Translations under genes and position numbers: made by a program
Origin: Neoarius graeffei
Lineage: Eukaryota > Chordata > Actinopteri > Siluriformes > Ariidae
Length of the DNA stretch: 64,000 nucleotides
Reading direction: 5' to 3'
NCBI RefSeq assembly: GCF_027579695.1
Contig: NC_083579.1
Coordinates: 72,339,371 to 72,403,370, forward strand
In this document: in pieces, positions 36,490 to 54,920 of the stretch
Numbering within the stretch: position 1 is the first letter of the stretch
Layout: the number at the start of each line of letters is the position of its first letter
The notes under the pieces: model-generated
The model's database searches: none
What the model saw: the letters and a program-made list of their open reading frames with translations, nothing else
Told to the model about the DNA's origin: nothing

Positions 36490-36778
36490 TTCACTTAAAA
36501 AAACTGATCCCATTAATTCATATATTTTGCATTATTCAGATATTACAGTATCATCTTGTAACCTGGTAAATTATTCAGAGACTCAAACTCAAGCAAAATT
36601 TTCACCTCTGGATATTTGAAAAAGCAAATCTTTATAACCTTCCGAAACATTAGCATAAAATGTTTTTGTCTGTATAATCAAAGAATTTGTCTGTAACCAT
36701 GACAGAAAGTTTTATAGATGTGTAGTGTTATACTGCCCCCTGTAGGTGTTTCTATTTCTTCCTGCCTTCCACACAGTG

Positions 36779-36817
36779 TGTTTTTGTACAGCTCTGCCCT
36801 GTGGTTAAAACACTGTG
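36779..36817 (-). other. V10 RSS
   Basis: CACAGTG, 23-bp spacer, ACAAAAACA. Confidence 0.92.
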
Positions 36818-37323
36818 TTCTCTCACAGCACAGAAATACACAGCGCTGTCATTATAATCCACAGCTTTCACTGTGAAGAATCCTTCCTCGGGAACTGTTT
36901 TATTCGCTGAAAATTTACTTTGGTTGGATTTTCCAAAGTCTGGATCTTTAAAGCTGGTAGTGTACACTATGAGCTCCATGCTCTCTCCTTGATATTGACG
37001 ATACCAGTACATTTCTATGTAAGTTGAACCCTTTGTCTGTGAGCATTTTATTGTGGCTGATTGGCCCAGTTTAACCCTGAGTATACTGGGCTGAGAGACA
37101 TCATTTGCATCTGCAACTCCTGTGAATAAACAGGACATAAAGTGTTAAGTTTATGTATGTAAGCTAGCTGTTAATTTTATGTTTTGATGCAGAGGTGTAT
37201 ACAAAATTTGTAGCATTACTATGAGAATCATGTAACTGCTTATTCTTACAGAGATGTCCAGTCGTTTTGGTAGTTACCTTGAATCCAGTAAAGTGACTGA
37301 AACACGAGTATAATCCTGATCAT
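36818..37323 (-). CDS. T-cell receptor V segment V10 (family A)
   Basis: The leader is 37323-37278 and the V exon 37119-36818. Text TKGSTYIEMYWYRQYQGE and TTSFKDPDFGKSNQSK place it closest to V8. The base before the ATG region differs slightly, but the leader peptide is the same MIRIILVFQSLYWIQG. Promoter TGACATCA is at 37400-37407. Intact. Confidence 0.9.
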
Positions 37324-47154: not shown

Positions 47155-47192
47155 GGTTTTTGTCATTAAGTGAGCTGATCTACAGCACTGTG
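47155..47192 (-). other. V16 RSS
   Basis: CACAGTG, 22-bp spacer, ACAAAAACC. Confidence 0.92.
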
Positions 47193-47625
47193 TAATAAGC
47201 TGCACAGAAATACACAGCACTGTCGCTCACTGAAAGACTGTTTATGGTCAAAGAGCCATTGTTTCTCCCATCACCACTCAGTTTGATCTTTGTTTCAAAT
47301 TCTGCCTCCAGGTTTGGAGTCGTAAGAGAAAGGTACCCCATGAGTGTAAATCCTGTGTCCTGGCTGTGTTTGTACCACAGGATGCGGTCATAGCTCTTTA
47401 CACTGTGTGAACATTTGATCTCAGCAACCTCATTCTGTTTTTTTATGAGATCAGGAGGATTCTGGACGACAGAACAAACACCAGAACCTGTTGAGAGAAA
47501 AAGAGAACCATCAAGGTGTACAAAATGAAGTAGTCTGTTCAATTTGGGAGCACATTTTATAAAATATTGTATTTACCTGGAAGGCACAATAGTATGGCAG
47601 AAAATATGATGAGAACAGAACACAT
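47193..47625 (-). CDS. T-cell receptor V segment V16 (family B)
   Basis: The leader 47625-47577 reads MCSVLIIFSAILLCLPG; the V exon 47487-47193 is open (GVCSVVQNPPDLIKKQNEV; SVKSYDRILWYKHS; GYLSLTTPNLEAEF). A (CT)n run begins 6 bp before the ATG. Gene plus about 2 kb of upstream DNA is duplicated with V17; here that DNA is interrupted by the foldback element at 48382. Confidence 0.89.
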
Positions 47626-48189: not shown

Positions 48190-48381
48190 GCAAAACAAAC
48201 CTCACCCGGCAGCACTGAATTTAGTGCTTTTGATACTGGCTCAATTTTACAAGTCTGACCTAGTCAAATTACAAGGTGAATCTGTGACCTTAAGTTTGAC
48301 ATTTCAAAGTCATTCAAGGTCAAAGATCATGGCGGCAACTGAAAGCCCATATGGGACTTCTTATATGTTGATAATGGTAAA
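48190..48381. repeat. AGGTCA-rich dispersed repeat, left part
   Basis: Shared with 54000-54190. It contains CTCAAGGTCA-like motifs and continues at 50672 after the inserted foldback element. Confidence 0.8.
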
Positions 48382-50671
48382 TAGTGGGGCTGTTAAGCTC
48401 TTATTATCAGAAGAATTGTGCACAAAATGAAAAAAGCATGAAACTTTCAGAGTTTGTTCTTGAAGGCATAAGCTTTAATTTGAGATGTGGAGGCATTCTC
48501 AGTTTGACCTCTGGGGTCAGCTAGAGGTCATTGACCTCCATGATGGCACATTTCTATGCATGAAATTAGAAAAGGCTGTATTTTAACACCTAAATGTGAT
48601 GTAAATATAAAATAAATGTGTTTTTCCATGTTACTGGGCATGAAAAAATCATATATAATACTGATATTCCTCTTAGGGGTAACTTCAGGGGTCAGGTAGA
48701 GGTCATTGACCTTTGAAATTTGAAGTTTCTATGCATGACATTCTAGACGGGTGTATCTTAGGATCTAAATGTGATAGAAATGTGAAATTAATGTGTATTT
48801 CCTTGTTTCTGACCATGAGAAACCCATTTTTAATACTGGTATTACTCTTACAGGTCATCTCTGGGGTCAGCTAGAGGTCACTGACCTCCAGCATAATGCA
48901 TATCTATGCACGAAATTAGAAACGGGTGTATCTTAGTTTCTAAATGTGATAGAAATGTAAACTAAATGTGTATTTCCATGTTTCTGGCCATGATAAACTA
49001 ATTTCTAATACTGATATCATTTTTATAAGTCACCTCTGAGGTCAGCTAGAGGTCACTGACCTCCACGATAATGCATTTCTAAGCATGAAATTAGAAACAA
49101 TCTATCTTTGGATTAAAATGTGAAATACTGTAAATGTAAAGTAAATATATGATTCCATGTTTCTGGACATGACACAACTCATTTCTGATAAGTAAAACAT
49201 CTCCAGTGGTCACAAACTATGTCAGAAGCTGAACACAGTTGCCCCATTTCCATTGATAATTTCAAAGTGAGTAATGTTTTGGAGCATTTGTTCTCATTTG
49301 CACTAGAGTTGAAGAATACAGTATATTGTAGTTTAATTTTCAGTCATTTTAATGTTGGACATTGATAGGGCAATTCTAAATTCACAGGAATAACTATATG
49401 TCAGTCTAGCAGAGGTAGAGATTCAACGGAATTTGCTTTGAGGCAACACATAAAAAGAGCAATGTACCAGGCTAATATATGGAACCTTGCTTTGGTTTCT
49501 CAACCATGTTTGCCCAGTCCATCAGACTGGGGATGGATTGACACCGATGCTGGATGGCAGCCACTTTGGACAACACTCCCTGAAGCTTCACAGGCTTGCT
49601 ATGAACTTGTGCACTGTGCAAAAAGGGTTGTACTGGGCACTGTAGATGTAAAAAGGCAGCCTTAAAGTGCACAGCACTGTGCACATGCTCTGGTGACTGC
49701 AGCGACTAAATCAGTGTTCTGTAGTTACAATTTGTAGGCCAACATTGTAATCCCCAAAGGTCAAGGCCCTTAGAATAAATGTAGATACTATAAGTGATTT
49801 TAAAATGTTCTTTATGGAACCTGTTCAACTGTTTACACTGCATTTAGAGTTTTGATTGTAGTTCAAGTTTTTGATTAGTTAAAGTTTATAATTTCTGACA
49901 AGTTGAAGTATATTTCTGTCATGTTCATATTCATATGGAATTGTTTCTTACAATCCAAAACACATGAGATTTTTATATAGATTTATCAAAATGTGGGATG
50001 TTTCCCAACCTTGCCTGTTCTCCATGATGTTGACCTCTCAGAATGATATCAGTATCAAAAATGGGTTTCTCATGTACAGAATCATAGAAATACAAATTTA
50101 GTTTACATTTCTATCACATTTAGAACCTGAGGTACACCCGTTTCTAATTTTATGCATAGAAATGCATTATGCTGGAGGTCAGTGACCTCTAGCTGACCCC
50201 AGAGATGACCTGTAAGAGTAATATCAGTATCAAAAATGGGTTTCTCATGGTCAGAAACAAGGGAATACACATTAACTTCACATTTCTATCACATTTAGAT
50301 CCTAAGATACACCCGTCTAGAATTTCATGCATAGAAACTTCAAATTTCAAAGGTCAATGACCTCTACCTGACCCCTGAAGTTACACCTAAGAGGAATATC
50401 AGTATTATATGTGATTTTTTCATGTCCAGGCACATGGAAAAACACATTTATTTTACATTTACATCACATTTAGATGTAAAGATACAGCCTTTTCTAATTT
50501 CATGCATAGAAATGTGATATCATGGAGGTCAATGACCTCTAGCTGACCCCAGAGGTCAAACTGAGAATGCCTCCACGTCGCAAATTAAAGCTTATGCCTT
50601 CAAGAACAAACCCTGAAAGTTTCATGCTTTTTTCATTTTGTGCACAATTGTTATGCTTAACAGGCCCACTA
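48382..50671. mobile_element. 2.29-kb foldback element with 175-bp periodic arms
   Basis: The ends are inverted: TAGTGGGGCTGTTAAG at the left and the complement TAGTGGGCCTGTTAAGC at the right. Near-identical arms of about 640 bp (48382-49020, 50042-50671) flank a loop of about 1 kb. Each arm contains a palindrome GAGGTCANTGACCTC (one base varies) every 175 bp: starts at 48524, 48699, 48874 and 49049, and at 50175, 50350 and 50525. The loop holds a coding remnant at 49438-49730. The uninterrupted site at 54180-54195 shows that it is an insertion, with a short A-rich (AAA) duplication. Superfamily unknown. Confidence 0.85.
49438..49730 (+). pseudogene. Remnant of a transposon-borne Cys-rich ORF
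   Basis: Frame 49438-49665 reads KRAMYQANIW, SPSDWGW and TTLPEASQACYELVHC. Just past its stop another frame gives LKCTALCTCSGDCSD. Together these recall the C-terminal Cys-rich region of ORFs common in fish repeats, here frame-broken. Function unknown; similarity is from memory. Confidence 0.45.
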
Positions 50672-51240
50672 AAACACCTGGCTATCATGAACCGTTTTAA
50701 AGTTATTGCCCTCTGAAAACCTATGATCTTGAGTTTGACATTTCAGGGTCACTCAAGGTCAAAGATCATGGTGCCAAGTGAAAGGCCATATGGGAGCTCC
50801 AATATGCTCATAACAGTAAACATCTGTCTATCGGCAACCGTTTTTGAGTTACAATGGAAAATATGTTATTTTGACCGATGACCTTGACACACCTGACCTT
50901 TAACCCCCAACTGCTACAGAGACTGTACAAGCTACCCCATCATGCAGCATATGGTTTGAAGCAGAACTGAAAAATGCTCATTTTGGTTTGAAGTCAAAAT
51001 GATGAATTTGAAGAAACTTATCACACAAAAAAATATTTTGAACTTTCTGGTGACCTTGACCGTGACCTGATTACACCCAGAATTTAAAGAGGTAATCTAG
51101 AGACCGTTGCCCACCTACGCTGGAAATTTGAAATCAATCAGTCCAACTGTCTAGATGCTAGATTGTTAACAGACAGACAGACAAACAAACAAACCGCACT
51201 GATTCCAATACCTCACCCCGCTGACTCCGTCGTTGATGAG
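50672..51240. repeat. AGGTCA-rich dispersed repeat, right part
   Basis: Continues AAACACCTGGCTATCATGAA where the left part was cut. It ends in a short GACAGACAGACAAACAAAC stretch. Same as 54190-54920. Confidence 0.8.
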
Positions 51241-53189: not shown

Positions 53190-53227
53190 GGTTTTTGTCA
53201 TTAAGTGAGCTGATCTACAGCACTGTG
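53190..53227 (-). other. V17 RSS
   Basis: CACAGTG, 22-bp spacer, ACAAAAACC. Confidence 0.92.
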
Positions 53228-53661
53228 TAATAAGCTGCACAGAAATACACAGCACTGTCGCTCACTGAAAGACTGTTTATGGTCAAAGAGCCGTCTTTGG
53301 TCCCATCACCACTCAGTTTGATCTTCGTTTCAAATTCTGCCTCCAGGTTTGGAGAAGTAATTAAAATGAACCCCATGAGTGTAAATCCTGTGTCCTGGCT
53401 GTGTTTGTACCACAGAATGCGATTATAGTCCTGTACAGTATGTGAACATTTGATCTCAGCAACCTCATTCTGTTTTTTTATGAGATCAGGAGGATTCTGG
53501 GCTACAGAACAAACACCAGAACCTGTGGAGAGAAAAAGAGAACCATCAAGGTGAACAAAATGAAGTAGTCTGTTCAAATTTGGGAGCACATTTTATAAAA
53601 TATTGTATTTACCTGGAAGGCACAATAGGATGGCAGAAAATATGATGAGAACAGAACACAT
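53228..53661 (-). CDS. T-cell receptor V segment V17 (family B)
   Basis: The leader 53661-53613 has the MCSVLIIFSAILLCLPG sequence of V16; the V exon 53522-53228 is open. It differs from V16 at CDR1 (HTVQDYNRILWYKHS), CDR2 (GFILITSPNLEAEF) and the GTKDGSLT turn. It is the tandem partner of V16. A shorter (CT)n run precedes the ATG (53668-53696). Confidence 0.89.
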
Positions 53662-53999: not shown

Positions 54000-54920
54000 G
54001 CAAAACAAACCTCACCCGGCAGCACTGAATTTAGTGCTTTTGATACTGGCTCAATTTTACAAGTCTGGCCTAGTCAAATTACAAGGTGAATCTGTGACCT
54101 TAAGTTTGACATTTCAAAGTCATTCAAGGTCAAACGTCATGGCGGCAACTGAAAGCCCATATGGGAGTTCTTATATGTTGATAATGGTAAACACCTGGCT
54201 ATCATGAACCGTTTTAAAGTTATAGCCCTTTGAAAACCCATGACCTTGAGTTTGACATTTCAGGGTCACTCAAGGTCAAAGATCATGGTGCCAAATGAAA
54301 GCCCATATGGCACTTCCTATAAGTTGATAATGGTAAATATCTGTCTACCATCAACCATTTTTAAGTTACAGCCCTCTGAATATATATGACCTTGAGTTTG
54401 ACCTTTCAGGGTCACTCAAGGTCATAGATCATGGTGCCAAGTGAAAGCCCATATGGGAGCTCCAATATGCTTATAACAGTAAACATCTGTCTATCAGCAA
54501 CCATTTTTGAGTTATAATGGAAAATATGTTATTTTGAACGATGACCTTGACACACCTGACCTTTAACCCCCAACCGCTACAGAGACTGTACAAGCTACCC
54601 CATCATGCAGCATATGTTTGGAAGCAGAACTGAAAGATGCTCATTTTGGTTTTGGCTTGAAGTCAAAATGATGAATTTGAAGAAAGTTATCGCAAAAAAA
54701 ATTTAAAAAATGATTTTGACCTTTCCGGTGACCTTGACATTGACCGTGACCTGATTACCTCCACAATTTAATGAGCTAATCTACAGACCGTTGCCCACCT
54801 ATGCTGGAAATTTGAAATCAATCGGTGCAACCGTCTAGACGCTAGATTGTTAACAGACAGACAGACAAACAAACAAACCACACTGATTCCAATACCTCAC
54901 CCCGCTGACTCTGTCATTGA
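54000..54920. repeat. AGGTCA-rich dispersed repeat, uninterrupted copy
   Basis: Tandemly repeated GGTCACTCAAGGTCA and TGAGTTTGACCTTTCAG motifs with period near 110 bp in 54120-54480. It carries the empty site of the foldback element near 54190. Confidence 0.8.

Follow-up and report, generated by a model that had tools for sequence, protein, structure and literature searches.

The element at positions 48382-50671 of the window, the 64-kb stretch of Neoarius graeffei DNA analyzed here, is a cut-and-paste DNA transposon whose long, Foldback-like arms are built of tandem units and whose loop holds the remains of a much larger transposase gene. Taken as a whole, the explanation that we favor, with moderate confidence, is an internally deleted cut-and-paste element derived from a probable Academ parent, in which the Foldback-like arms carry clusters of half sites that would be bound by the transposase.

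Both ends of the complete transposon (48382-50671) are directly flanked by an unstranded AAA target site duplication, with the left copy at 48379..48381 and the right copy at 50672..50674, as established by flank comparison and by an empty site. The element starts with TAGTGGG and ends with CCCACTA. Copy comparison delimited the left tip, TAGTGGGGCTGTTAAGC (48382..48398, plus strand), which 29 of 30 both-ended copies share without change and the remaining copy shares except for one base, and tip comparison delimited the right tip (50655..50671, minus strand), the reverse complement of which is TAGTGGGCCTGTTAAGC. The window copy was inserted within a 146-bp repeat, and comparison within the window identified a plus-strand unit of this repeat showing the empty target site (54095..54240), in which 3 of 80 bases differ from the flanks joined with one AAA.

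A search of the host genome (2.34 Gb, 38 contigs) for the arms and loop found them again on many contigs, mostly at ~99% identity, with one locus (L009) at 96%. Of 286 candidates, 40 were scored, a figure that is not a copy number. The window copy and 39 fetched loci were compared, and both ends gave clean matches in 30 of these 40 loci. Exact 3-bp target duplications flank 27 of the 30 both-ended copies, with 20 different triplets among them, and no copy (0/30) has a 4-bp duplication. Three copies (L027, L029 and L043) have no matching duplication. As L028 and L030 share their flanks, they count as one insertion in duplicated DNA, giving 26 of 29 independent insertions with a duplication. The right arms of the 30 copies differ on average by 1.2% over 435 pairs, a divergence that we read as suggesting recent amplification. 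The fixed inverted ends and the constant length of the target duplication are those of a cut-and-paste transposon with terminal inverted repeats (TIRs), and these ends, together with the varied 3-bp duplications and the ~99% alike copies, show that this element belongs to that class and was recently active. In a separate observation, the flanks of L027 are inverted copies of each other (39/40 bases) and both of its tips are of the left type; this element lies at the center of an inverted duplication.

The surroundings of the window copy contain many minus-strand V-type frames ending in YFCA (for example, 36752-37144, 47180-47572 and 53215-53592), and from its look we take the window to be a T-cell receptor alpha/delta V array of fish. 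The element lies between two V-type frames. The 146-bp tandem repeat that forms its insertion site is found at 48279-48381, 50672-50851 and 54095-54516, has several AAGGTCA/TGACCTTGA half sites of its own and may be part of another mobile element.

The left TIR (48382..49032, plus strand), about 650 bp in length, matches the right one (50031..50671, minus strand) at 92-93%, and a gap-free alignment of 48408-49032 with 50031-50655 gives 93% complementarity over 625 nt. Direct repeats follow each other in steps of 175, 175 and 175 bp in the left arm and of 175 and 175 bp in the right arm, and a separate repeat analysis also gave a period of 175 bp on both sides; there are four units on the left and three on the right. 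Long TIRs made of tandem repeats are the mark of a Foldback-like element, and both arms of this element are of that kind. Units of the same rank agree closely across the arms (L1-R1 93.7%, L2-R2 97.1% and L3-R3 88.6% identity) and units of different rank are 67-79% alike; this rank-wise pairing, with the lower likeness between ranks, indicates that the array is older than the last homogenization of the arms. An independent satellite origin of the 175-bp units was rejected, as the units are part of an element that has exact ends and target duplications.

Each unit carries a composite of half sites, consisting of an exact AGGTCANTGACCT palindrome (AGGTCA-N-TGACCT, IR-1) overlapped by a DR5 (RGGTCA-N5-AGGTCA), to which an everted pair (ER3) is added in the first unit of each arm. 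On the plus strand, these are the 175-bp units L1 (48507..48681; ER3 48505-48519, DR5 48514-48530, IR-1 48525-48537), L2 (48682..48856; DR5 48689-48705, IR-1 48700-48712) and L3 (48857..49031; DR5 48864-48880, IR-1 48875-48887), followed by unit L4 (49032..49184; DR5 49039-49055, IR-1 49050-49062), which has no right-arm partner. On the minus strand, they are the 175-bp units R1 (50382..50556; ER3 50544-50558, DR5 50533-50549, IR-1 50526-50538), R2 (50207..50381; DR5 50358-50374, IR-1 50351-50363) and R3 (50032..50206; DR5 50183-50199, IR-1 50176-50188). All seven exact palindromes of the window are inside the element, and no others appear in the 64 kb when one mismatch is allowed. A chance origin was rejected with 100 shuffles searched with one mismatch allowed, which gave a mean of 0.27 palindromes, three at most and in no case seven. 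In none of 30 first-order Markov copies of the window did an IR-1 occur, and none had more than one DR5. The initial annotation had called this stretch a Foldback transposon with a repeated palindrome in both arms, and this description is correct, as the ends recur in other genomic copies with target duplications. Its limits of 48382 and 50671 are the exact tips with AAA on either side, and its inverted arms of about 640 bp and its seven palindromes in 175-bp steps, four on the left and three on the right, are likewise borne out.

A sister family, 75-80% identical over the ends, was read at three ends (L060 right, L056 left and L056 right). ER3 and DR5 are present in all three and IR-1 in none (0/3), and scans of the whole L060 and L056 loci found one cluster per end. 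In the two sister right ends with the tip read, the distance from the tip is 124 bp to the start of ER3 and 133 bp to that of DR5, matching the left end of the window copy, the right end of which is 10 bp shorter than the left. In the sister ends, conservation of the terminal ~150 bp extends beyond the half sites. With ER3 and DR5 in all three sister ends read and IR-1 in none, the case for IR-1 as the defining part is weakened: the AGGTCA-N-TGACCT arrangement emphasized in the initial annotation is literally correct, but it is one part of a composite site and is missing from the sister ends. In the simplest reading of these sequences, the ancestral end would have had one ER3+DR5 cluster, which the window family multiplied and in which it perfected IR-1; alternatively, the sister family may have lost units.

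We consider it most likely that the clusters are binding sites for the transposase of the element itself. A different and rather doubtful reading is that the half sites have no role and that the arms are a passive, satellite-like tandem duplication carried along by the element. The different-rank units have drifted, as passive arms would, and Foldback arms can seed satellites, as described for Tetris (PMC4079207), but several features of the clusters argue against it. Among the seven units, 25 of 33 columns are invariant in the first, core part versus 65 of 148 elsewhere (Fisher p 0.001), a comparison that offers support rather than proof since the columns are not independent and the border was set by us. 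Six or seven IR-1 palindromes are kept in every both-ended copy (30/30), although these copies are young, and the ER3+DR5 pair recurs at all three sister ends.

It is less credible, and in our estimate clearly unlikely, that the arrays are host nuclear-receptor response elements, with RAR/RXR on DR5 and FXR/RXR on IR-1, and thereby a candidate enhancer, in which case transcription or mobility of the element might follow the hormone state and its copies might carry an enhancer to host genes. DR5 is a site for RAR, and the seven perfect IR-1 and seven DR5 sites of the window copy stand out against the Markov copies, with DR5 shared by all three sister ends read. The IR1 AGGTCANTGACCT is reported as the FXR consensus (PMC9181207). 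Alu repeats resemble the window element in being mobile repeats that spread consensus receptor sites, since they disperse DR2 retinoic-acid elements, several of which recruit RAR in cells (PMC1785376), but Alu is a retroelement with DR2, whereas the window element carries seven IR-1 and seven DR5 per copy as candidate sites. Against a receptor role, the clusters lie in both arms near both tips, as transposase sites would, while one enhancer would suffice; IR-1 is absent from the three sister ends read, and the match to receptor sites is one of sequence. It is more improbable again that the arrays are dual-purpose, so that transposase and host nuclear receptors would read the same AGGTCA grammar (ER3, DR5 and IR-1) and compete or cooperate on the arms, with each burst seeding clusters of perfect RAR/FXR-type sites genome-wide, also within the apparent T-cell receptor V-gene array.

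The loop joins a 5' leader to the final ~90 codons of a transposase that was much larger. The remaining 5' part, the parent leader (49185..49434, plus strand, from copy comparison), is followed by the remnant of these last ~90 codons (49434..49710, plus strand, with an approximate end taken from the L043 match), the Cys-rich part of which is frame-broken in the window copy. In 33 of the 39 other fetched loci, the match to the window copy ends at precisely element position 1053 (window 49434), and this common stop marks 49434 as the deletion junction of the window copy. Two longer copies, L043 (3092 bp) and L045 (3781 bp, with a further repeat inserted), hold missing coding DNA between the same arms, and their frames contain a missing protein part with acidic motifs, followed by a Cys-rich end that continues the window remnant. 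The Cys-rich ORF that had been noticed in the loop is indeed a remnant, with an identity that is now given by L043 and L045 as the frame-broken C-terminus of a transposase.

Further parts of the transposase come from a rearranged locus on C1 (21221900-21233300), where element positions 144-1053 run into a 601-aa frame that has a Cys/His cluster at its N-terminus, and where DDE-like frames adjoin arm sequence. A relative, L060, is 72% alike in the protein part compared and has a 1252-aa frame that starts at the N-terminus, spans the DDE-like part and extends into the acidic-motif part, with the rest in frames of 189 and 113 aa. A distant relative with 31% identity (L076, 1-6512), on a contig in a Planctomycetota-labelled bin, combines DDE-like, acidic-motif and Cys-rich parts within a single frame of 1466 aa that is open at its 5' end; this contig is likely a eukaryotic contaminant of the bin, the other explanation being lateral transfer. 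As longer copies and relatives supply the missing transposase, the window element is an internal-deletion derivative, resembling Ds, which derives from Ac by internal deletion. No intact parent of the exact family of the window element was present among the loci read, in which L047, L049 and L059 have masked stretches. In viral contigs, a pattern search gave 105 stretches, none of which was confirmed as a transposase relative, and another search gave none.

Several side observations accompany these loci. The C1 locus (L062-L065) includes two inverted duplications (2800 bp at 99.96% and 1330 bp at 100%) that consist of parent-like coding DNA with the left arm, beside a short element copy; the fold-back arms may have promoted these rearrangements, or the assembly may be at fault. 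The host genome contains many more diverged transposase relatives, down to ~30% identity, some with frames of at least 1200 aa, and a 2060-aa frame at L059 includes a masked stretch.

The parent transposase probably belongs to the Academ superfamily, AcademX type, an assignment that we hold with reasonable confidence. An alignment of 12 relatives has 35 invariant columns, from which we picked an acidic subset comprising D152, D195, E286-E287-x-D289, D313-x-D315 and D372, all invariant except D315 and D372, which each come close. These acidic residues follow the order of the metal ligands in FEN/XPG nucleases, and the nuclease domain of AcademX elements is XPG-type. The motif EADTRLFLH...RTVDSD of the transposase relatives can be set beside EADAQLAFL...ITEDSD in an exon of the same genome, which we take to be EXO1. 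AcademX elements are described with a "nuclease" part and target duplications of 3 or 4 bp (PMC10045372), and the 3-bp duplications found here fall within that length. Academ is listed for zebrafish, medaka and stickleback (PMC4746887), and curated bivalve Academ elements have a mean length of 5565 bp (PMC10294476). The window element is thus like AcademX in its 3-bp duplications and in a large transposase with an extra nuclease-like part, the latter at the motif level only, and differs from it in its Foldback-like arms with 175-bp units. In the open-access literature searched, which did not extend to the main Academ description, no Foldback-like arms are described for Academ-type elements.

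Domain searches were less informative. The Pfam tesmin/TSO1 CXC model matched one of the 12 relatives at E 0.00036 and L076 only at E 1.1, and the DDE-like part matched DUF6589 only, below the cut-off (E 0.0016 and 0.003), in two distant relatives; no literature on DUF6589 was found. Pfam scans of two distant relatives gave no zinc-finger match to the N-terminal Cys/His cluster. For the acidic-motif part, and likewise for L076, nothing useful was found in Pfam or PDB, and matches to Pox_A11 (2/12 at E 0.0024) and Dis3l2_C_term (1/12 at 0.036) were taken as chance. A genome search with Pfam XPG_I matched four places, none a copy of the window element. A profile-profile comparison with four XPG/FEN-type exons from this genome, a weak test at 53 columns, did not reach significance, its score falling short of the best among 40 shuffled controls, and the single-sequence predicted fold of L076 was too poor for use (mean pLDDT 35.9).

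These negative sequence and profile tests of the nuclease-like part leave some room for a parent from another or an undescribed superfamily that makes 3-bp duplications and whose protein has DDE-like, nuclease-like and CXC-like parts, a possibility that we judge to be unlikely but worth keeping in mind. The duplication length, the agreement of the acidic-motif order with the FEN/XPG fold, the listing of Academ in other fishes and the size of the bivalve elements argue for Academ instead. Other superfamilies fit less well. PIF/Harbinger elements duplicate a 3-bp TWA target and were rejected on the 20 different triplets among 27 duplications, and CACTA/EnSpm elements begin with CACT(A/G), which the TAGTGGG start of the window element does not match. 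Kolobok elements, with a TTAA duplication, were set aside on the varied 3-bp duplications. The P superfamily, including Galileo, has a 7-8 bp target duplication and was rejected on the 3-bp length and on the lack of any THAP or P-type Pfam match in the relatives.

Under the preferred explanation, the window element would be a non-autonomous internal deletion of a larger parent, estimated at about 7 kb, with a transposase predicted to combine a Cys/His cluster at the N-terminus with a DDE-like part, a region whose acidic motifs follow the FEN/XPG order and a CXC-like C-terminus. Fuller relatives would mobilize the deleted element in trans, with insertion producing 3-bp target duplications. One half-site cluster near each tip (ER3+DR5, here also with the perfect IR-1) would have been multiplied into the 175-bp units, the parent transposase would bind the terminal sequence and the clusters, and the arrays would concentrate the transposase locally and assist in bringing the two ends together, as in Galileo.

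Galileo, of the P superfamily in Drosophila, has long TIRs consisting partly of direct repeats that hold transposase sites, and footprinting and EMSA placed the footprint of its THAP domain at +63 to +80, with two more sites in the first two TIR repeats, the site being absent from repeats 3 and 4 of Galileo-G (PMC3688188). The window element resembles it in long TIRs built partly of direct repeats, with a repeated site near the tip, and differs in its transposase, its 3-bp duplication, its regular 175-bp unit and the presence of a candidate site in every unit. Tetris, a Foldback element of Drosophila virilis, is described as apparently non-autonomous with TIR tandem repeats of ~220 bp (PMC4079207); it shares this apparent lack of autonomy and the internal tandem repeats of the TIRs with the window element, for which, in contrast, parent coding sequence was found. 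The nematode Mutator/Foldback family Tm1 is listed as another Foldback-like case. The initial view that the arms and loop fit no known element class was dropped after the longer copies and relatives revealed the transposase, since tandem-repeat TIRs are known from Galileo and Tetris and the loop's transposase is probably Academ. Foldback-like arms were already known, and the window element, which pairs them with a probably Academ-type transposase, is an uncommon version of an element type already described.

The finding connects arms of the Foldback type with a different transposase in a vertebrate host. As the sister ends read have one cluster each and the window family has an array, the question of why transposons build repetitive arms becomes testable in these two families. 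If receptors were indeed to bind the arrays, the young copies would amount to naturally occurring groups of hormone-response sites.
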